Made by a program: the position numbers and the translations under genes. The notes under the pieces are model-generated. The model saw only the letters and a list, made by a program, of their open reading frames with translations, ran no database searches and was not told where the DNA came from. Of a DNA stretch of 64,000 nt, positions 5,646 to 55,154 are shown in pieces. The DNA lies in NCBI RefSeq assembly GCF_016278365.1, contig NZ_JADQBZ010000006.1, forward strand, positions 62,001 through 126,000, read 5' to 3'. The DNA is from Methanolobus sp. Lineage in GTDB: Archaea > Halobacteriota > Methanosarcinia > Methanosarcinales > Methanosarcinaceae. Positions within the stretch are counted from its first letter, which is position 1. Every line of letters starts with the position of its first letter.

Positions 5646-7367
5646 TCAATTTGTCCATCTTTCCTGCAGACCCAGTTCCTGCAACTTTCCCTTTGAAGGC
5701 ACTCCTCTTTCATCCCAACCCCTGAAATGATAATAGTCGGTAAGGGCATTCCTGAAGACTTCCCTGTCAATGCCACCTTCTCCGAAGAATCTTTCAGGCA
5801 ATGCATCATCTTCATGCGAAAATCCAGTTTTGGTATTGTACATTCTCTCCAGATTGTATATTCGTTCTCCTGAGCGCAGCAGTTCCTCGGCAGTATAGGT
5901 CTTTCCGGTTGCAGCACTGAGAAGGGAAGCCAGTTCCACTTCTCCCATTGCAAAAGTGGCATAAGGGCAGATGACAAACGAATCAATTACTGCAGCAAGG
6001 TTCTGGAAATATTGTACAAGTGCAGCCTTCCCACCAAAACTCAGCCTGTCAAGTGCCATCGGCTTCCCCATCATCTCCGGCGCTGCCATGAAAGCACTCA
6101 GGTGACATCCTCCCCTGTTGGATGTCGCATAAGCAATAGCCATCCCTGCCATTTCCCGGGGGTCATATCCCGGGAGGTCAAGTTTCTTGACGCTCATACT
6201 GTTCTGCGGCATCCCTTTTGAGTACATATATGAATATGAACCTGCAGAAAGTTCGCTCCTACCCTCCCCAATATCCCGGACGAGTGCAACAAGTTTCTCT
6301 CTCTCAGGTGTGGAGGAGTGCAGCTCCATGTATGCTGCAACAGCAGATCCGCATGAAATGGGATCCATGCCATAGTCGACACACATTCTGTTGAGCAAAG
6401 TGATAGTATCCAGGTCAGCATTGCCAATATTGGGGCCAAATGCCCAGAGTAAGTCATAATCCGGGACCAGGGTCCCATCATCAAAATCCCTTCTGCACCC
6501 TACAGGGCAGGCATAGCATGGTTTTTTTTCGGTTTGGCAGTTCTCCCTGATGAACTCTCCTGATATACTATTTAGCGCAGATGAGCTCTTATTCCTGAAA
6601 TTGTTCGCAGGCAGGATCTTCATGTAGCTCATCAGGTCCGAAAAGACCGATGTTCCGTAATTTGCAAGGCCTTTGGATATCGGAGGATTTGCTGTCAACA
6701 GTTTGTTTACTTTTTCCACAGTCCTATCAAAGACCTCCGGCTCTGCCATCTCAGGAGTATTACTTCCTTTTATCACAATAGCCTTGAGATTCTTTGAACC
6801 GGCCACCGCTCCATGTCCCCCACGGCCGGCAAGATATCCGTCGTTCATCATACTCGCCAGCGGCACCAGCCTCTCTCCCGCCTTACCTATGCATGCCACC
6901 TTGCCTTTTGGCGCAAGGATCAATGCAGTTTCATGTGTGTCCTTTCCCCACAGATGGTCTGCAGGGAGTATCTCCACATCCTCATCCTCTATGTGAATAT
7001 AGGACGGTTCCGCAGCTTTTCCCAGCACTATCAGGGAATCCATACCTGCAAACTTCATCTCCGCACCAAGGCAACCTCCTGCATTGGAATCGAAGATAGT
7101 CCCTGTCAGGGGTGACTTTGTTGTTATGCTGAAGTGTCCTGACATGGGCGCAGAGGTTCCGGTGAGAGGTCCGGTGCTGAAGATAAGTGGATTTTCCGGA
7201 CTCAGGGGTTCTATTCCAGGGTCAGCCAGGTCCGCCATGAGCCGGCATCCCAGGCCACGCCCTCCAATGAACTGTTCTGCATACTTTTTCGTTGTCCTCG
7301 ATTCAGTGACCGAGTTATTCCCAAGGTCTATGATTACTGTCCTTCCGGTCCATCCGAACATGTTCAT
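5646..7367 (-). CDS. aor: Aldehyde:ferredoxin oxidoreductase family (tungsten or molybdenum enzyme)
   Basis: 573 residues, within the family range of about 570-620. N-terminal domain with the pterin-binding segment (GGRGLG, STGPLTGT, SNAGG), and the [4Fe-4S] cysteines C284, C287, C291 (PCYACPVGC) with the fourth at C467 (ICPYATF), matching CxxCxxxC plus a distant Cys. The family oxidises aldehydes to acids with ferredoxin using a bis-pterin tungsten or molybdenum centre; substrate not deducible. It needs metal and pterin supplied by systems such as modABC (45.7-48.3 kb) and MoeA (34.9-36.8 kb) in this window. Single gene, start ATG 7367. Confidence 0.93.
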   Translation of the reverse strand: MNMFGWTGRTVIIDLGNNSVTESRTTKKYAEQFIGGRGLGCRLMADLADPGIEPLSPENPLIFSTGPLTGTSAPMSGHFSITTKSPLTGTIFDSNAGGCLGAEMKFAGMDSLIVLGKAAEPSYIHIEDEDVEILPADHLWGKDTHETALILAPKGKVACIGKAGERLVPLASMMNDGYLAGRGGHGAVAGSKNLKAIVIKGSNTPEMAEPEVFDRTVEKVNKLLTANPPISKGLANYGTSVFSDLMSYMKILPANNFRNKSSSALNSISGEFIRENCQTEKKPCYACPVGCRRDFDDGTLVPDYDLLWAFGPNIGNADLDTITLLNRMCVDYGMDPISCGSAVAAYMELHSSTPEREKLVALVRDIGEGRSELSAGSYSYMYSKGMPQNSMSVKKLDLPGYDPREMAGMAIAYATSNRGGCHLSAFMAAPEMMGKPMALDRLSFGGKAALVQYFQNLAAVIDSFVICPYATFAMGEVELASLLSAATGKTYTAEELLRSGERIYNLERMYNTKTGFSHEDDALPERFFGEGGIDREVFRNALTDYYHFRGWDERGVPSKGKLQELGLQERWTN

Positions 7368-13847: not shown

Positions 13848-15085
13848 GTGACAAATCCGTTGTAAAGGTAGCCCTGGTGTCATGCGGTTCGGAATATGCT
13901 GGTGTACATAAAGAACTTGAATCCGTAGCAAAATCCGTTGATGCCAAGCTGGTATTTCCGGAGATAGATGTTTCTTCTCTGGATACGATCGGCAGGGATT
14001 TTGGTATAGAGGCAGCCAGCCCGGATCTGAGACTCATGATGGCAAGGGCAAAAGCCGTTGTTGAAGGGATAACAGACGTCGACGGAGTATTCATTACTTC
14101 ATGTTTCAGATGCGCAGAAGCTGCCATTGTAAGGAATGAGCTGAGGCGTTATATCCACAAACATTCAGACATTCCTGTTATCAGTTATTCATTCACGGAG
14201 CGCACAACGGCAGCAACCCTGATGACCCGTATGGAAGCACTGACCACGATCGCAAGAAGGAAGCATCTGCTTGCAAGGGAGCACCAGACCGGCCTTACCG
14301 CAGGCATAGACTCAGGTTCCACCACCACCAAGGCTGTTATAATGAAAGATGACAAGATACTCGGTACCGGATGGGTGCCTACGATCAAGGTCATTGAAAG
14401 CGCAACGGAGGCTTTTGACAAAGCACTTGAACAGGCAGGTGTCAGGCGGGAAGACATCCAGGCGATAGGAACCACAGGGTATGGCCGTTTTCTTGTGGGT
14501 GAACATTTCAATGCCCAGCTTGTGCAGGAAGAGATCACAGTTAATTCAAAGGGTGCTGTCTATCTTGCCAACAAGCAGAAAGGTCCTGCCACTGTTATAG
14601 ACATCGGGGGTATGGACAACAAGGCCATATCCGTTGATGACGGCATACCCGGCATGTTCACAATGGGGGGTATTTGTGCCGGAGCATCCGGACGTTTCCT
14701 GGATATGACTGCCAAAAGACTTGGTGTGGATATCACCGAGCTTGGTGCCCTGGCGGTGAAAGGTATGCAGAATAAAGTGGACATGAACAGCTACTGTATC
14801 GTTTTCGGTATCCAGTCACTGGTAAATTCCCTTGCAAAAGGTGCCACTCCTGAAGACGTTGCAGCAGCTGCCTGTCATAGTGTGGTCGAGCAGATATTCG
14901 AGCAGCAATTACAGGAAGTTGATGTGAAGGAACCTCTTATCCTCGTGGGTGGTTCATCTCTCATTGAAGGTGTGCCCAAGGCGCTCAGCGAGCTTCTTAA
15001 GATAGAAGTACTTGTTCCCCCGAACTCCCATCTGATAGGTGCTGTGGGAAGTGCTCTCCTGGCCTCCGGGTTCGTGGAGGAGTGA
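13844..15085 (+). CDS. mmp15: Methanogenesis marker protein 15 (dehydratase-activator-like ASKHA ATPase)
   Basis: 413 residues. Residues 1-140 are a marker-specific domain; the remainder is an ASKHA ATPase of the 2-hydroxyacyl-CoA dehydratase activator type: [13 protein letters not shown] (phosphate 1), [18 protein letters not shown] (phosphate 2), [13 protein letters not shown] with C278, and a second cysteine in NSYCIVFG near 312. In the dehydratase activators these two cysteines from each monomer hold a bridging [4Fe-4S] cluster that donates electrons upon ATP hydrolysis. A similar ATP-gated low-potential electron role fits this operon but is inference. Confidence 0.92.
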
Positions 15086-45726: not shown

Positions 45727-46848
45727 CTAAAATACCGCAATCTTTCGTTTATCCAGTTTCACTCTGCAGGTATCTCCTGCTTCAAGGTGCAATTTCTCAA
45801 AAGTCTGATTGGATGTTTCCGCTATGAGAAGATTTTGATGATGCCCGATATCAATGTAAATGAGTTTACTTGCACCCTTATTAACAATGCTCTTTACCGA
45901 TGCGCTGAATACATTCTCTTCCTGTGGATCAGTTTCACCTTCTTCTGATAAGATATAGATATTCTCGGGGCGGATACCCCATGATACATTCCTGCCCGCC
46001 CTCAACTTCTGCTGTATCACGCTTACCTGCAGTTCATCCTTGCGGAGCAGGACAGTACCTGTAGCAGTATCTTCCTCTCCCACAATAACATCTTCAAATA
46101 TGTTGGTCATGCCTACCAGTTCAGCCACATGACTGTTCTGAGGATGATAGAATACCTCCTCGGGAGTTCCTGTTTGCTGGACCCGGCCGTTATGGAAGAT
46201 AACCATCCTGTCAGCCATAGTGAAAGCTTCCACCGGATTGTGAGTAATGAACAGTATTGGAATGCCAAGTTCCTTCTGTATTCTCCTTATCATCTCTCTC
46301 AATTTCATACGCACGACAGCATCAAGCGCCGAAAAAGGCTCATCAAGCAGCAGTATTTCCGGCTTTGGCGCAAGTGCGCGGGCCAGTGCCACTCTTTGTT
46401 TCTGTCCCCCTGAGAGCTGGGAAGGATAATTGTCCTCAAGGCCTTCGATATGGAGCAACCGTAGCACTTCTCCGACCCTTCTCCCTTTTTCCTCTTCACT
46501 GAATCCTTTCAGTCCGTAGGCAATGTTCTTTTTCACATCCATGTGCGGAAAAAGAGCATAGTTCTGGAACACGTATCCGAGGCTTCGCTGCTGCACCGGC
46601 AGGTCAATCCTTTTATGGCAGTCAAAGTAGACCTTGTCGTTAACGATTATCTTGCCGCCATTGGGTTCCAGCAGTCCTGAGATGCACTGCAGTGCCGTGG
46701 TCTTCCCGGAGCCCGATCGCCCGAAAAGAACCACCAGCTCATTTCCTGCCTCAAATTTGGCATCAAGCATGAAAACAGGGTCTATCCCTTTCTTTTTATC
46801 ACTTTTTTTCATGTAATGACGTTTTCTGAAATCCACTTTGATTCCCAT
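45727..46848 (-). CDS. modC: Molybdate/tungstate ABC transporter ATPase
   Basis: 373 residues from ATG 46848 (GAGGTT 7 bases upstream); the frame to 46878 overlaps modB without family residues. Walker A LFGRSGSGKTT, Q-loop YVFQNYALFPHMDVKKNI, signature LSGGQKQRVALARAL, Walker B LLLDEPFSALD, H-loop FITHN. The C-terminal 130 residues carry a TOBE/Mop-like oxyanion-binding fold with two beta units. Drives uptake of MoO4 or WO4 with ModB and ModA. Third gene of modABC on the minus strand. Confidence 0.93.
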   Translation of the reverse strand: MGIKVDFRKRHYMKKSDKKKGIDPVFMLDAKFEAGNELVVLFGRSGSGKTTALQCISGLLEPNGGKIIVNDKVYFDCHKRIDLPVQQRSLGYVFQNYALFPHMDVKKNIAYGLKGFSEEEKGRRVGEVLRLLHIEGLEDNYPSQLSGGQKQRVALARALAPKPEILLLDEPFSALDAVVRMKLREMIRRIQKELGIPILFITHNPVEAFTMADRMVIFHNGRVQQTGTPEEVFYHPQNSHVAELVGMTNIFEDVIVGEEDTATGTVLLRKDELQVSVIQQKLRAGRNVSWGIRPENIYILSEEGETDPQEENVFSASVKSIVNKGASKLIYIDIGHHQNLLIAETSNQTFEKLHLEAGDTCRVKLDKRKIAVF

Positions 46849-46855
46849 TGTAACC

Positions 46856-47524
46856 TCATATCTTCCAGCGGTTGACAAGTCTTGCAGTTATAGCCATGGA
46901 GAGCAGGGACACGGTCACGAGTATGATCACCAGCATGTTGGCAAGCTCATTGTTGCCCCCCTGAAAGGCGCTGTAAATGGAGATGGCCATTGTGTTCGTT
47001 CTTCCGGGAATGTTCCCTGCGACCATCAGGGTCGCACCGAATTCTCCCACTGCCCTTGCAAAGCTCAGGACTACACCTGCAAGTATTCCCTTTTTAGCAA
47101 GAGGGAGCGTGATGAAAAGCGCAGTCTCAAGTTCCTTTCTTCCCAGAGTGAATGCGGCATATTCAAAATCCCTGTCTACGGCCTCGATGGCTGCTGTGGT
47201 GGTCTTGACCATGAGGGGCAGGGATACGACAAATGCGGCTATGACTGCCACTTGCCAGGTGAACAGTAAACTAATACCTGTCAGGTCAAAAAGAACTTTA
47301 CCAATGACCCCGTTCTTTCCCAGAAGCATGATGAGAAGATAGCCGGTCACTGTTGGAGGGAGTACCATAGGTAGTGTGACCAGCACATCGACCAGCCACT
47401 TTCCCATGAATTCCCTTCTGGCCAGGATATAAGATATGATGGTACCCAGTATTGCCACTATGAGAGTGGATATTGCCGCTATCTTAAGTGTTATTACAAG
47501 GGGAAACCATACCTGTTCAAGCAT
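46856..47524 (-). CDS. modB: Molybdate/tungstate ABC transporter permease
   Basis: 222 residues with five to six transmembrane helices and the coupling-helix motif EYAAFTLGRKELETALFITLPLAKKGILAG (in short, the EAA-G loop). MPMVLPPTVTGYLL is typical of ModB. Stops 7 bases before the modC start and begins 6 bases after modA, indicating one transcript. Confidence 0.93.
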   Translation of the reverse strand: MLEQVWFPLVITLKIAAISTLIVAILGTIISYILARREFMGKWLVDVLVTLPMVLPPTVTGYLLIMLLGKNGVIGKVLFDLTGISLLFTWQVAVIAAFVVSLPLMVKTTTAAIEAVDRDFEYAAFTLGRKELETALFITLPLAKKGILAGVVLSFARAVGEFGATLMVAGNIPGRTNTMAISIYSAFQGGNNELANMLVIILVTVSLLSMAITARLVNRWKI

Positions 47525-47530
47525 TCGAGT

Positions 47531-48328
47531 TTATCCGTTATTAGGAATACTGAACCCATATTGTTCCAGTATGGATTTACCTCTTTCTCCTGTGACGAAA
47601 TCAATAAAGAGCTGGGATTCTTCACGGTGACTTGTGGATGAGACTACAGCTATGGGGTAGGTGATGGGGGTGCTTACTGGAACGGAAGTTACCACTTCAA
47701 TTGTGCCCGATTTAGCAGGTGACGCATCAGTTCCGAATACAAATCCGGCGTCAACTTCTCCACGTTCCACATAGACAAGTACCTGCTTAACATTCTCGCC
47801 CATAAGCATCTTGCCTGAGACGCTGTTCCATATTCCTGCATTGGTCATTGATTCCTTTGCATATTTGCCGGCGGGTACTGTCTCTGGATTTCCGATAGCT
47901 ATATTCTTCACTTCTGGCCTTTGCAGGCTTTCCATGCCGGTAATCCCAAATTCGTTATCCTTTGGAACGATTAACACTAACGAGTTTTCCACGAAATCCT
48001 CTCTTGTATCGTTATAGATGAAACCTCTGGAGGCGAGCATGTCCATCTGATCCTGAGCGGCTGAGGCAAACACATCTATGGGTGCTCCGCTCTCTATTTG
48101 TGACCGGAGCGTACCTGATGCCGCAAAATTGAAAACGACATCAATATCAGGATTCTCTGTTTCAAATTCCTCCTCCATAGCAGTGAAAGCCTCTGTTAGG
48201 CTTGCGGCGGCGGATACTGTAAGCGTGACCTGTGGTTGTTCTGTCTCTTTATCTGTGCATCCGCTTGCAAAAAGTACGATCGTCAATATGACTGCTATTG
48301 CCATAATCAGTTTTTTGTTTAATACCAT
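47531..48328 (-). CDS. modA: Molybdate/tungstate-binding lipoprotein
   Basis: 265 residues. Lipoprotein signal with lipobox ASGC (Cys near 24), then the ModA core LTVSAAASLTEAFTAM, NFAASGTLRSQIESGAP and DVFASAAQDQMD. Serines of the first motifs bind the oxyanion. It is the ModA rather than WtpA type by its SAAASL motif, so metal preference is not certain. First gene of modABC; a ModE-like palindrome lies 53 bases upstream of the ATG. Confidence 0.93.
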   Translation of the reverse strand: MVLNKKLIMAIAVILTIVLFASGCTDKETEQPQVTLTVSAAASLTEAFTAMEEEFETENPDIDVVFNFAASGTLRSQIESGAPIDVFASAAQDQMDMLASRGFIYNDTREDFVENSLVLIVPKDNEFGITGMESLQRPEVKNIAIGNPETVPAGKYAKESMTNAGIWNSVSGKMLMGENVKQVLVYVERGEVDAGFVFGTDASPAKSGTIEVVTSVPVSTPITYPIAVVSSTSHREESQLFIDFVTGERGKSILEQYGFSIPNNG

Positions 48329-48380: not shown

Positions 48381-48404
48381 CGTTATGTTCTGTCATACAT
48401 AACG
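48381..48404. promoter_or_regulatory. ModE-like palindrome upstream of modABC
   Basis: CGTTATGT, eight-base spacer, ACATAACG: perfect 8-bp inverted repeat. Shape and outer bases match the known ModE operator (CGnTATAT, short spacer, ATATAnCG). It lies between the modA start and an A/T-rich stretch (48415-48435, likely TATA region). No modE gene is in the window. Confidence 0.62.
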
Positions 48405-48526
48405 CATATCTTCCTCTTTTTATTATAAATATTTTTCTAAAACATGATACTGTTAAGTTAAGGAGTATGCTTTAATATAAAAAAGAGAGTCTGCTAAATA
48501 CTAAGGATATAATAACATAATATCTG

Positions 48527-49190: not shown

Positions 49191-52100
49191 ATGAAGTGCC
49201 CCAATAAATTTATCTATGCCTCTATCATTTTTCTTGCCATCAGTCTATCCGCTTTAGCTTTGGATGTCGAGATGCTTACAACGGACATGCAGAGTAACTC
49301 CGGTGAACCCGTGGATGTCATTGTGAGAGTAACAAATAATTCAACTCCTATGAATAACACCCTCGTAAACTTCACAACTACATTTGGTATACTCAATTCA
49401 TCATCTGCGTACACCGACGTATACGGCATTGCGGCAATACAGCTAAATTCCAGTGTGTCTGGAGCCGCACAGGTCAATGCAAGCGCAGGCACTTCGTATA
49501 ATCTAACAAATATAACTTTTCTTCCCCTGGCCGCCAGTTCAATTCTGGTAGATGTCGATTATCCCGTAAATGTTGCGGGCAATATCACAAATATTACTTT
49601 TACCCCTGTGGATATTTTTGGCAATACCAATTCAAGTGAGCTGATATATCTGGAAATTAACATAAGCGACTATTCGGAAATTGTAACACTTTCAATAAGT
49701 CCCGGGAACATAACACACCTTGAAATCATTCCCGAAGGCTCAGCAGGTGTAAACTGGACCGCTCTGGAGATACTTGCCAATCCTGTAACCGGAAATGCTG
49801 TTCTGAGCCTGAACTCTACCATTGCAGGCAATATTAACATCACATCGACAACCGGTTCAGCTTCCAACTTTACGGAATTGGTGTTCATTCCAGGGGAACC
49901 CTCACGGATCGGAGCTGTATACAACGATGAATATACAGTGAACACGACCTCCAGTATGTATGTACGTCTTTATGATATCTATGACAATCCTACACCAAAT
50001 ATCAATCTCAATTTCAGTTTGACATCTCCTGAAAACACTGCCTACAACAGTCCTGTGGAATATAACTCTGCGGGACTTGCCTATTATAATGGGACCACGG
50101 ATCCCAGCGGGCAATTTGCCAATATTTTCAGGACCGATAAAAGAGCAGGTGCAAACATAATTAACATAGTTGTTGCGAATACTTCACTTCAGGGCAACAT
50201 TACTATAACTGGGATTGCAGACGAGATCGATAATTTGTATCTCTCACATAATCCCGGACTTGCTCTTTCCAATAACAAGGATTCCTATGTCCTCTCAGCC
50301 CGGCCGATAGATCAGTTCTTAAATCCAATATTGCCTCGCACAACCCCTATTAAAGAACTGGTCCGGTTCACAACAGCTAGTGGTTATCTTGTGCTGATAC
50401 CTTTAAACAACCAGGGGCAGGCAAATACTATAGTTGGTCCTACTCCTTATGTTGAGTCTCTCACAATAACAGCGACCTACAGGGATGCTTCTGGTTATAC
50501 TAATTTCACAAACAGCACCACTCTCTATTTTGTGGCTGGCTCTTTATATCTGCTGGACTTGTATTCGGTTCCAAATGCCATACTTGCACAGGGATTGAAT
50601 GGTAATCATGAAGCTACTGTCTCCCTTGTCGCACTGGACGAATGGGGCCATGCACTCCCTGGCATTTCTGTGGCTCTCAATAATACCAATACGACAGTTG
50701 GTACCCTGGCAGTCAGTGGTGTCAATGCTACGAATATTATTAATGTGACAACAGATGCCAATGGGAAGGTAAAAGCCTCCTTCTTAGGCAATGTTTCCGG
50801 AAATGCGACAATCCTGGCTACCAGTGGCAGCATCAACACCTCGATAAATATAAGCGTGAAGTCCGAGCCTTTCATGAGCGTGACACTGGATGTGAAACCA
50901 TCCAATGTAACATCCGGTGGTACTGTGAACGTAACAACGATCATCTCAATAGAAGGAGAACTCCCGATCATACGACCTGCAGCAAGTGCAATGCTGGTCC
51001 TTGACCGCTCAGGAAGTATGGACCCTGACTATTATGCGGGAACTCCTCTGGATGTCGTGCTTGTTATTGACAGGTCGGGAAGTATGAAATTCTTGGGCAC
51101 TTCCCCTGAACAACCAATGACAGACGCTAAAATAGCTGCAGGAGAATTCGTAGACAACCTTGCATCCAATGCACAGGCAGGAGTGGTATCATTCTCGACT
51201 TCCAGCAGGATGGACATAGGAATGACCCTTCTCCATTCCTATAACAACAAGACCTCAGTAAAAGGTGTCATCGATGTCTTAGTAGCTGATGGTTCAACTG
51301 CTATGGGTGATGCAATGGCAGATGCGAATAACATGCTTATAAATGGACGCCCGGAGTCAAAAAAAGTAATGATCGTCTTAACAGACGGTGTCTCTAATGC
51401 TGGCTCGGATCGTGAAGGTCAAGCAGCCGTTACAACCGCAAAGGCAAATGGAATCACTATTTATACAATCGGTCTGGGTGAAACAAGTTATATTGATGAG
51501 CCTGTTCTTCAGCGCATAGCTTTTGAGACTGAAGGAATTTATTATAATGCACCCACAAGTGCAGAACTACGCGAGGTGTACAATTCAATCGCACAGGAAA
51601 TAAGCGATTACGATGTACGCTTCGTGGAATATGGGACAGAAGGTTTTACTCCATATGACTATACCTTTCAGGGTTCGATAGACCCGCAGGAATCCGTTGG
51701 GATACAGGAATATGTGCTCAAATTCCAAGGGTATGATTTGGATACTGTCTTCAATGCTGGGAGCCAGTATGGTGGTTCGAGTGCAGGAGAATGCCTCATT
51801 CAAATAAATGGGGCAAACTTTACATTGATTCCTTCATCAAACACTCCAAGTGCCAATAATGTATGGGTGAATTATGAATATAATATTACTGCTCACCTAG
51901 CTTCAGGTTCTAACACAGTAACTTTCTATGATTATTATGCATATTTAGGTAATGGCGACTGGACTAGCCGGATTAGGAATGTAGAGCTATTCAGGAATGG
52001 TACTAGAATTGCATATCATCCCACAGATACTGATCTGAGTCGATTTGGTTATGAATGTAGCCTGAATCTAGTTAAGCCCTTTGAAGAAACACTCCTTATT

Positions 52101-55100
52101 AATGAGACGATTAATGACCTTAAAGTCCAACTTGATTGGGAAGACAGCGTTAATGACCTTTCTCTCCAATTAACAAGTCCATCTGGAATAGTTTATGGTT
52201 TAAGTAATGATACAACCGGATACTATTCAAACGGCGATACTTCCATATATATATGGATACAGCCATTGTCTTACATTTATCCGGATGATGATGCAGATAC
52301 TGTGGAAAAAGGCAACTGGACGGTAACTGTTGAAGGCACTGATCTAGGTGATTTTACCATTTCTACATACATAGATAAGATGAGCGCAGCCAAGTTATCA
52401 TCTCACGCATTCATTTCCAGTTTTGATGAAAGCCGCGGAGACAAGGCAGGACTTGCTCTTTACAGTATTGGTAATGTTTCACTTACCGACAGCCAGGCAA
52501 GTTATCTGCTTGACAATGGTAGCTGGGCTGGTTACTTCACTGTCCAGACAAACGGGATTTATTCTTTTGATATCTCATGGGATGACACCTCCGAAATGAA
52601 TGTTTCGCTTTATGAAGGCATAGATTTGCTGAATTCTTCAACTATTAACACAGGTGTTTGCCAGATAAGCTCTCCTTTGTATGTTGGAAAAACCTATCTT
52701 CTGGAAATAGCCAAGGGTCCTTATTCGGGTACTGATACTCATTTCACTGTTGATGTTTCAAGTTCTCCTCTGGATACCATTATGACCACTTACTACGATG
52801 GTAGTGATGAGAGTGGAAAAGGTACACCTCGTTTCAGGACATGGGAAGGTTCACAATGGTCCATGGAAAGTTATTCTAATTTCATAGATGGTGTACCGTA
52901 TTTTGTGCTTCTTGAGCCAAGTCCCGTAAGGGATGAGATTATAATGGTGACAGGTGATGATCAAAATGATGTCAATGCACAGATATGGGACGGAAACTCT
53001 TGGAGTTCAGTACAGGAGCTTAGCACTAAGCTGAGTTCAAGCGTAAGAAGGGGTTTTGACGTAAAGTATGAGCAAGAGTCAGGTGATGCTGTTGTAGTCT
53101 ATATGAACGTAAACAAGTATTCTAATGTGCCATTATATAGGGTCTGGAATAGCTCTTCTTGGGGTTCAGAGGCTGCAGTAGATTCTTCAAACACAGGTGC
53201 AGGTACTATCCAATGGATGAGACTTGAAGCAAAACCAAATTCAGATGAGATGGTTCTTGTGACCCTTGACAGTTCTAGAGATATACGTGCACAGGTATGG
53301 GATGGCGACTCATGGGGCAATGTTACTCAGATAACTAACAATGCCAGAACTGCAAATTACCAGTGCTTTGATGTAATTTACGAACAAGGTACAGGCAGAG
53401 CTATGGTGGTATGGGCTGATTCAAATAAAGTCCGATATCGTATCTGGAATGGTATTTCCTGGGAAAGTGGACAGGACCTCTATTCATTCTCCAATGATGT
53501 CTACTGGATAAAACTGGCAGCTGATCCGAATTCAGAAAGAGTTATATTAGGTTCTCAGGACGAAGCTTATGATGTTTATGTTGGTGTCTGGGATGGTTCT
53601 TCGTGGCCTTCTTCACAATTAGGAAGGATTGAGGATAACACATACCGCACTGATGTCAGATCATTTGATGTAGCATTTGAACAACAGACCGGTAAAGGAA
53701 TAGTAGTATGGGGTGATCGAAGTACCGTTCCAAAATATCGTACTTGGTCCGGTTCTTGGAGCAGCGAGTCATCAGCACTTGATCTGGGCAGCAGTGGTTA
53801 TACCAGGTGGGTACAGCTAACTCCTGATCCGATTTCAAATGAGGTATTCCTTATGACATCTGATGGCAATACTGATCTGAATATCCAGAAATGGTCTGGC
53901 TCTTCCTTTATTTCCACTGCGCAGGTTGAACCTTCTTCCACATGGAACTACGAGTGTTTCGACATTGTATTCTCTACACAGGAAGCGTCTGTTGAAAGTA
54001 CTCCTGTCTCCTGGAGTGGGTGGACTGCCGGCGTCACATCAACCCTTGAAAATGACTCCATTTCCCATCTGAGCAATGCGATAGATACAATCACTGCCGA
54101 CGGACTGACAGCTATAGATGAGGGATTGTACGTTGCCAATAATGAACTCTCCTCAGTGGATGGCAATTCCACGATTGTCATCATGACAGACGGCATTGAT
54201 AATGCAGGTTATCACTCCCTGCTGGAGGAAGCATACAGGGCAAAAGCCAACAACACCACGATCTATACAGTAGGTTTCGGTAACACCGAGTCTGAGGTTG
54301 ACTCTATACTTGCCGAAATTGCAAGTATCACCGGTGGTGAATACTATTTCGCTCCGAACTCAAGTGTCCTTAAGGAGATCTTCACGGGAATAGCAATGCA
54401 GATTACGAACTTCTCGGCAGGCGGACCGGAATTGAACCTACATGTTCCTTACAATTATGTATCTCCAATGGCCGTGGCGAAGGTCACCTATGTAACTGGA
54501 AGCAGCAATGCCACAACAGGTAATCTGACTCAGTTCGATATCCCTATACCTCCCGGAAGGAACAATGCCGAGCCTGCAATCACAACATCCGGTACCATGT
54601 CCATTTTTGAATGGAAGCTGCCGACACTGGGTCCTGGTGACAAGTGGGGTATATGGTATCAGATGAAAGTGGAAGGTGCGGGTTATGTGCCTCTGATACT
54701 GCCATCATCCACGATTACGTATACTGATTTGAGCGGTGAGAACATCACCATCTATATTCCCAGTGCGGGAGGCATGCCTGTCGGAGGAGGAGGTGGTTTA
54801 AGTCCCTTGTCGTATTCTCTGGGAGAATTGTTAGTAGTACCTGACCATTCCGTGCTGCAGATAGGCGAATCCACAAATATAACCTTAACAGTAAATGATA
54901 TTACCGGGAATGCCAGTTTTGCCTATGTGGTGCTTCACACAAGTCTTGGATCCTTCACCAATTATAATACTTCGTACGGTATGACTCCCATAAACGCTAC
55001 TGTCATTGGTTCAGACCATGTTAATTTCACGAGTCAGATAGCAGGTAAAGCCTATATCACTGCCTACGCGTATAATACAAACAATGTAAGTGATATGCTC

Positions 55101-55154
55101 AACGAGAGCGAATTGATATTAGTAAGGCCCAAGGGGATGATAACTATCAGTTAA
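49191..55154 (+). CDS. Giant secreted surface protein with interrupted vWA domain and propeller
   Basis: 1987 residues. Signal peptide 1-23 (cleavage after ALA). Residues 25-590 are tandem Ig/Big-1-like domains with many N-glycosylation sequons. A vWA MIDAS motif, LDRSGSM with D605, is followed only 22 residues later by a second one, IDRSGSM with D627, that starts a complete vWA (627-800; T703; TDGVSNAG). Next come a sugar-binding-like domain (about 815-950), a P-domain-like region (about 955-1070), a PPC-like domain (about 1085-1190), and about 1195-1605 a propeller of two alternating blade types. The C-terminal half of another vWA, without MIDAS start, follows (1605-1745; T1640; MTDGIDNAG), then a glycine hinge (GGGGGL) and an Ig-like end. 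No C-terminal helix is present. Probably an adhesin or S-layer-associated protein. Confidence 0.88.
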   Translation: MKCPNKFIYASIIFLAISLSALALDVEMLTTDMQSNSGEPVDVIVRVTNNSTPMNNTLVNFTTTFGILNSSSAYTDVYGIAAIQLNSSVSGAAQVNASAGTSYNLTNITFLPLAASSILVDVDYPVNVAGNITNITFTPVDIFGNTNSSELIYLEINISDYSEIVTLSISPGNITHLEIIPEGSAGVNWTALEILANPVTGNAVLSLNSTIAGNINITSTTGSASNFTELVFIPGEPSRIGAVYNDEYTVNTTSSMYVRLYDIYDNPTPNINLNFSLTSPENTAYNSPVEYNSAGLAYYNGTTDPSGQFANIFRTDKRAGANIINIVVANTSLQGNITITGIADEIDNLYLSHNPGLALSNNKDSYVLSARPIDQFLNPILPRTTPIKELVRFTTASGYLVLIPLNNQGQANTIVGPTPYVESLTITATYRDASGYTNFTNSTTLYFVAGSLYLLDLYSVPNAILAQGLNGNHEATVSLVALDEWGHALPGISVALNNTNTTVGTLAVSGVNATNIINVTTDANGKVKASFLGNVSGNATILATSGSINTSINISVKSEPFMSVTLDVKPSNVTSGGTVNVTTIISIEGELPIIRPAASAMLVLDRSGSMDPDYYAGTPLDVVLVIDRSGSMKFLGTSPEQPMTDAKIAAGEFVDNLASNAQAGVVSFSTSSRMDIGMTLLHSYNNKTSVKGVIDVLVADGSTAMGDAMADANNMLINGRPESKKVMIVLTDGVSNAGSDREGQAAVTTAKANGITIYTIGLGETSYIDEPVLQRIAFETEGIYYNAPTSAELREVYNSIAQEISDYDVRFVEYGTEGFTPYDYTFQGSIDPQESVGIQEYVLKFQGYDLDTVFNAGSQYGGSSAGECLIQINGANFTLIPSSNTPSANNVWVNYEYNITAHLASGSNTVTFYDYYAYLGNGDWTSRIRNVELFRNGTRIAYHPTDTDLSRFGYECSLNLVKPFEETLLINETINDLKVQLDWEDSVNDLSLQLTSPSGIVYGLSNDTTGYYSNGDTSIYIWIQPLSYIYPDDDADTVEKGNWTVTVEGTDLGDFTISTYIDKMSAAKLSSHAFISSFDESRGDKAGLALYSIGNVSLTDSQASYLLDNGSWAGYFTVQTNGIYSFDISWDDTSEMNVSLYEGIDLLNSSTINTGVCQISSPLYVGKTYLLEIAKGPYSGTDTHFTVDVSSSPLDTIMTTYYDGSDESGKGTPRFRTWEGSQWSMESYSNFIDGVPYFVLLEPSPVRDEIIMVTGDDQNDVNAQIWDGNSWSSVQELSTKLSSSVRRGFDVKYEQESGDAVVVYMNVNKYSNVPLYRVWNSSSWGSEAAVDSSNTGAGTIQWMRLEAKPNSDEMVLVTLDSSRDIRAQVWDGDSWGNVTQITNNARTANYQCFDVIYEQGTGRAMVVWADSNKVRYRIWNGISWESGQDLYSFSNDVYWIKLAADPNSERVILGSQDEAYDVYVGVWDGSSWPSSQLGRIEDNTYRTDVRSFDVAFEQQTGKGIVVWGDRSTVPKYRTWSGSWSSESSALDLGSSGYTRWVQLTPDPISNEVFLMTSDGNTDLNIQKWSGSSFISTAQVEPSSTWNYECFDIVFSTQEASVESTPVSWSGWTAGVTSTLENDSISHLSNAIDTITADGLTAIDEGLYVANNELSSVDGNSTIVIMTDGIDNAGYHSLLEEAYRAKANNTTIYTVGFGNTESEVDSILAEIASITGGEYYFAPNSSVLKEIFTGIAMQITNFSAGGPELNLHVPYNYVSPMAVAKVTYVTGSSNATTGNLTQFDIPIPPGRNNAEPAITTSGTMSIFEWKLPTLGPGDKWGIWYQMKVEGAGYVPLILPSSTITYTDLSGENITIYIPSAGGMPVGGGGGLSPLSYSLGELLVVPDHSVLQIGESTNITLTVNDITGNASFAYVVLHTSLGSFTNYNTSYGMTPINATVIGSDHVNFTSQIAGKAYITAYAYNTNNVSDMLNESELILVRPKGMITIS

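Follow-up and report, generated by a model that had tools for sequence, protein, structure and literature searches.

A predicted ModE operator at the modABC promoter of a Methanolobus species, and further ModE boxes in its relatives

Known ModE systems and the Methanolobus locus

A known case of molybdate-dependent control by ModE with which our locus can be compared is that of Escherichia coli K-12, where ModE binds a box in the modA promoter. This box reads CGTTATAT-TGTCGCCT-ACATAACG (NC_000913) and lies 19 bases before the start codon, and a passage of PMC545781 gives the ModE consensus as ATCGNTATATA-N6-TATATANCGAT. For methanogens, a passage of PMC9765008, citing Studholme and Pau 2003 (a work whose title names Archaea), places modABC of the Methanosarcinales under ModE control; regulator, operon and order are the same as those considered here. 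The passage differs from our case in that it does not name Methanolobus, and it mentions control of nitrogenase by ModE. Since PMC9765008 already places Methanosarcinales modABC under ModE, we regard the box described below as a further case of known ModE control; it is almost certainly a docking site of the molybdate-sensing repressor ModE, and so belongs to an ordinary type of switch that bacteria and related methanogens are known to have. Among literature titles and the opening lines of abstracts, we recognised no paper on ModE in Methanolobus or on the hairpin RNA that we report below in its relatives.

The locus lies in a 64-kb stretch of a genome that its named relatives place in Methanolobus, and we refer to this whole analysed stretch as the window. 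The genome searched comprises 2.87 Mb and is 99.89% complete. Like the E. coli modABC box, the Methanolobus site is a 24-bp dyad of the form CGTTATRT-N8-ACATAACG before modA. The two systems differ in their surroundings: the Methanolobus promoter has an archaeal TATA box, and modE and modABC lie on separate contigs in this genome, whereas E. coli modE adjoins acrZ-modA.

The modABC operon and its promoter

The features of the locus, in the order in which they are read on the minus strand, are the following:

48446 to 48463, minus strand: conserved element CCTTAACTTAACAGTATC, 42-59 bp upstream of the ModE box
48422 to 48429, minus strand: TATA-like box TTTATAAT (TTATAT-like), from which transcription is predicted to start within the ModE box
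48381 to 48404, minus strand: predicted ModE box (operator), CGTTATGT-N8-ACATAACG, 52 bases from the modA start codon, conserved in relatives
47531 to 48328, minus strand: modA, molybdate-binding protein, 265 aa (TIGR01256, 212 bits; cut-off 62.5)
46856 to 47524, minus strand: modB, molybdate ABC permease, 222 aa (TIGR02141, 240.7 bits; cut-off 182.6)
45727 to 46848, minus strand: modC-like ABC ATPase (TIGR02142, 269 bits, below the cut-off of 285.05; other subfamilies fall further below theirs)

The box thus listed sits in the promoter of the mod operon, followed by modA, modB and the modC-like ATPase. The start codon of the ATPase gene was picked by eye inside the ORF 45727-46878, and the family scan took 45727-46803. 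Judged by the ModA and ModB matches, the operon probably encodes a molybdate-type transporter. ModA scores 36.5 bits against the tungstate model WtpA (cut-off 242.75), and the tungstate models all stay far below their cut-offs. Upstream, beyond the neighbouring peptidyl-prolyl isomerase gene, the window also holds a secreted-looking, repeat-rich ORF of 1987 aa (49191-55154, plus strand).

In this genome the start of the ModE box lies 17 bases downstream of the TATA-like box. From the position of the TATA-like box and the usual archaeal spacing between such a box and the start of transcription, the modABC transcript is predicted to start inside the ModE box. The arrangement recurs in the genus: of 26 modA promoters, 24 have a TTATAT-like box that begins 23-25 bp ahead of the ModE box, and the other two have it at 26 and 28 bp, by a scan in which places near -26 were favoured among equal scores. 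An operator that lies downstream of the TATA box and over the start is in the typical place of a repressor. The E. coli record names ModE a dual regulator, which would suit an activating role at modABC, but the location of the box downstream of the TATA-like box and over the predicted start in those 24 of 26 genus promoters makes it very unlikely that ModE is an activator rather than a repressor here.

The upstream element CCTTAACTTAACAGTATC occurs once in this genome when up to 2 mismatches are allowed, and many genomes of the genus have it at the corresponding position before modA; it may be the site of a second regulator. A copy was also seen in one relative (G004), before a ModE box of the second class described below.

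The inverted repeat as a probable ModE box

The original prediction had pointed to a perfect 8-bp inverted repeat at 48381-48404, before modABC, and had read it as a ModE-like operator. The sequence there is CGTTATGT-TCTGTCAT-ACATAACG, and the repeat is indeed perfect, with an 8-base spacer; its place before modABC also holds, with modA and modB over their NCBIfam cut-offs and the ATPase short of that for modC. A bare perfect 8-bp inverted repeat is unremarkable in the window, where 17 occur with spacers of 4-12 (11.0 expected) and one with a spacer of 8 (1.4 expected). The weight of the site therefore comes from its match to the ModE box, its position and its conservation, and not from its dyad symmetry.

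As a ModE box, the site stands alone. It is the sole match in the window when up to 3 mismatches are allowed, where shuffled sequence leads us to expect 0.20, and a pattern with one relaxed position in each arm finds no other match at 0-1 mismatch in the whole genome. We scored it with a matrix built from 27 of the 30 modA-upstream sites of the next section, from which the site itself and those of G036 and G043 were excluded. It reached 32.8 bits and the E. coli site 24.6 bits; 3 Mb of random sequence contained no site of 20 bits or more. The site is also a 24-bp dyad that follows the consensus core CGNTATATA-N6-TATATANCG at 13 of its 16 fixed bases, as counted by eye.

Conservation of the box before modA

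A search for ModA in 60 genomes gave matches in 52, and we examined 30 loci, one per genome, leaving out second copies and a distant second ModA family. The box was present at 0-1 mismatch in 25 of the 26 Methanolobus loci, and with 2 mismatches in the remaining one (G020). The four loci outside the genus showed 1 mismatch (G047), 2 (G048) and 3 (G043), and in one case no box (G036, 6 mismatches). Arm columns carry 1.1-1.9 bits and spacer columns 0.08-0.61: the arms are held and the spacers are free to vary.

We also scored a set of 79 named loci, 42 from Methanosarcinaceae and 37 others, bacterial. In the 300 bases upstream of modA, 34 of the 42 Methanosarcinaceae loci have a site that scores 14 bits or more, against none of the 42 for the reversed motif. 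The eight misses comprised seven Methanosarcina loci and one of Methanohalophilus at 13.4 bits; Methanosarcina has ModE, as seen in the control genome, despite its seven modA loci below 14 bits. Over the whole length of each locus, two of the 37 bacterial ones scored above 10 bits, and in one of them (Nitrospiraceae, L208, 18.9 bits) the site was directly before modA. Together with the 24-bp layout shared with E. coli modA, this retention across the Methanosarcinaceae bears out the operator reading of the original prediction.

The near-chance frequency of perfect inverted repeats in the window would allow the palindrome to be a product of chance without function. Such an explanation is barely credible, however, for a box that is kept at modA throughout nearly the whole genus while the spacers diverge, whose arms are also kept across species, which differs little from that of E. 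coli, and which is missing from three relatives that have no ModE (see below).

The ModE-type protein and its co-occurrence with the box

The presence of a ModE homologue elsewhere in the genome had been predicted from the box, and one was found: a single protein of 180 aa (L020:1213-1755, minus strand), the only one in this genome with a ModE-type HTH match (G000:C4 139877-140116). Its Mop/TOBE domain scores 62.8 bits with TIGR00638 (cut-off 55) and 58.5 bits with PF03459 (cut-off 22.3). The HTH region scores 62 bits against TIGR00637 (E 4.3e-17), which is below the curated cut-off of 98.5, and for this reason we call the protein ModE-type; the same cut-off was exceeded in none of 90 genomes of the family, 81 of which had a match of some kind. 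E. coli ModE has two Mop domains, and a tandem pair of this kind was not found in the 180-aa protein, which has one. Identity with E. coli ModE is 27% overall, with the motifs SYKxAW, GGK and SARN common to both, and the PDB relatives recovered with phmmer include the ModE structures 1b9m and 1o7l.

The box tends to be found where ModE is. Three relatives of the order that lack ModE (G025, G028 and G034) were without the box at modA, with best scores of -4.0 or less, in partly draft genomes and with one locus (L276) offering just 110 bases before the match. Where ModE is present, the two modA copies of G043 have boxes that score 27.0 and 16.3 bits, and G036 has a site of 21.2 bits at one copy and no box before the other. 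In G020 (L122, G020:C14) the modE frame is broken by stops and frame changes, and the modA box persists with the lowest score of the genus, 20.7 bits. Drawn from few and partly draft genomes, this co-occurrence is supportive of the ModE reading and falls short of proof.

The box could instead serve the response to another oxyanion, for instance through a tungstate-specific relative of ModE, with a transporter that answers to tungstate. Mop domains can bind tungstate too (PDB names include a molybdate/tungstate-binding protein), and the window contains an AOR-type gene, AOR-type enzymes being usually tungsten-dependent. We nevertheless consider this improbable: the genome has a single protein with a ModE-type HTH match, the layout of the box is that of the E. 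coli box, and ModA passes the molybdate model and falls far short of the WtpA cut-off.

A model for control of modABC

On the comparisons above, the box is very probably a ModE operator through which molybdate-bound ModE represses modABC. When cytoplasmic molybdate (possibly also tungstate) is plentiful, it would bind the single C-terminal Mop/TOBE domain of ModE, and a ModE dimer would grip the CGTTATGT and ACATAACG arms by its winged helices. Because the box starts 17 bases past the TATA-like box and covers the predicted start, bound ModE would be expected to block either the recruitment of RNA polymerase or the start of transcription at this promoter. Once molybdate runs short, ModE would leave and modABC would be transcribed.

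A search for ModE boxes elsewhere in this genome

The motif had also been expected to lead to Mo/W control of AOR and formylmethanofuran dehydrogenase genes, and here the expectation failed. Four matches to TIGR03129 (B-type formylmethanofuran dehydrogenase) were found in this genome, two of them over the cut-off, and the stretches around them contain no box, with best scores of 1.9 bits or less. No ModE box precedes the AOR-type gene either; the next best site in the window scores 6.7 bits and lies elsewhere, at 13890. The AOR-type gene itself (5667-6722, minus strand) scores 343.5 bits with PF01314.

With a relaxed pattern allowing up to 3 mismatches, the genome gave 92 matches in the forward orientation and 173 with the reversed control, and since the forward count is the lower of the two, we treat the weak matches as noise. 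Among the weak sites with fewer than 3 mismatches, other than L003, L006, L080/L141 and L082/L143, the neighbours are a chaperonin together with an integrase-type gene, and genes for a band-7 protein, a TPP enzyme, a GSDH-type enzyme and an acetyltransferase. The ModE box of this genome is at modA only, and a wider regulon is not seen by this motif. The original prediction was to be refuted by a lack of further copies near Mo/W genes and a lack of ModE, both together: the first is the case in this genome and the second is not, and relatives do carry further copies.

Further ModE boxes in the genus

Summed over the 27 Methanolobus genomes, the motif has 62 sites at 0-1 mismatch, and its reversed control has 16. 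By our sorting, 26 of the 62 lie at modA and 17 at a second mod-type operon or at like stand-alone loci (the second class). S-layer-type genes account for another 6 and FecB/BtuF-type binding-protein genes for 7, and the last 6 look like chance. The S-layer and binding-protein classes were set from scanned representatives (L092 for S-layer; L093, L101 and the second gene of L096 for binding proteins), and their other members were assigned by shared leaders and protein starts. In relatives the box also precedes a second molybdate-type transporter operon.

The S-layer-type genes were an unexpected target class. Before them the box comes directly after a TATA-like box (L092, L094, L097, L098, L099 and L103), and the product of L092 scores 223.7 bits with TIGR01567. 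Boxes were also seen before genes of FecB/BtuF-type periplasmic binding proteins (PF01497) at L093, L095, L096, L100, L101 and L102; at L101 the binding-protein gene is followed by an HmdB-like radical SAM gene, and at L093 by a methyltransferase-like gene. It is possible that the FecB/BtuF-type genes behind the boxes provide a second route of Mo or W uptake, for which MolBC-A (PMC4031551) offers a comparison.

A candidate hairpin RNA in relatives

Behind each of the 17 boxes of the second class (L104-L120, from 17 genomes of the genus) we found a 5' arm, CTCCGAACATTGCTACTT, and then a hairpin; the same was found at L164 and L165. The 16 pairs of the hairpin are 94.7% formed across the 17 sequences, compared with 90.3 in shuffles and 27-50% in slid versions. 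Seven pairs are altered on both sides (shuffle mean 3.1, with 0 of 500 as high), and the number of further pair types is unexceptional, 164 of 500 shuffles being as high.

Of 119 genomes searched with a model of this RNA (R1), 18 gave a match, and every one of these belongs to the genus, of whose 27 genomes they make up 18; 17 of these 18 had been in the training set, and G018 was new. Weak matches were obtained in G020 (E 0.13) and G011 (E 0.74), and the model search gave no match in the window or in the rest of this genome. Six genomes have the hairpin RNA without the distant second ModA (G002, G008, G009, G012, G014, which is 70% complete, and G021), and in them identity is 89% in the 5' arm, 79% in the box and 62% in the hairpin, against 32-37% in the flanks.

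In 13 of the hairpin RNA loci there was no Rfam match at the gathering score other than a tRNA, and in 3 loci there was none at E 1. The Moco riboswitch (PMC2408646) is likewise an RNA element upstream of molybdate transporter genes, a likeness that concerns only the hairpin RNA of the relatives; it differs in being absent from the window and in that the hairpin loci match no Rfam family apart from that tRNA.

The dyad of the hairpin scores as a weak ModE box (at least 7 bits) in 11 of the 17 sequences, and for this reason a second ModE operator, in place of an RNA, is an alternative. Pairing is kept, however, where the ModE letters are lost (for example in L107, L109 and L120), which favours RNA. 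We consider the conserved 5' arm and the covarying hairpin a candidate ModE-controlled small RNA or leader.

Implications for Methanolobus

The result in the window is an ordinary one, and the relatives are more interesting: there the motif leads to the promoters of another transporter operon and of genes for S-layer-type and binding proteins, as well as to a hairpin RNA that lacks an Rfam match. We tentatively suggest, with less than even confidence, that the ModE boxes of Methanolobus drive a molybdate-starvation programme. It would extend past modABC to a second mod-type operon with a hairpin-RNA leader (kept as a stand-alone ModE-controlled small RNA where the operon is missing) together with S-layer-type and FecB/BtuF-type genes, and the species studied here would represent a reduced form with the modABC box only. 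At modABC, the ModE box of bacteria recurs with almost the same letters as a predictable archaeal promoter element, with a fixed geometry to the TATA box, and this makes ModE control in Methanolobus directly testable.
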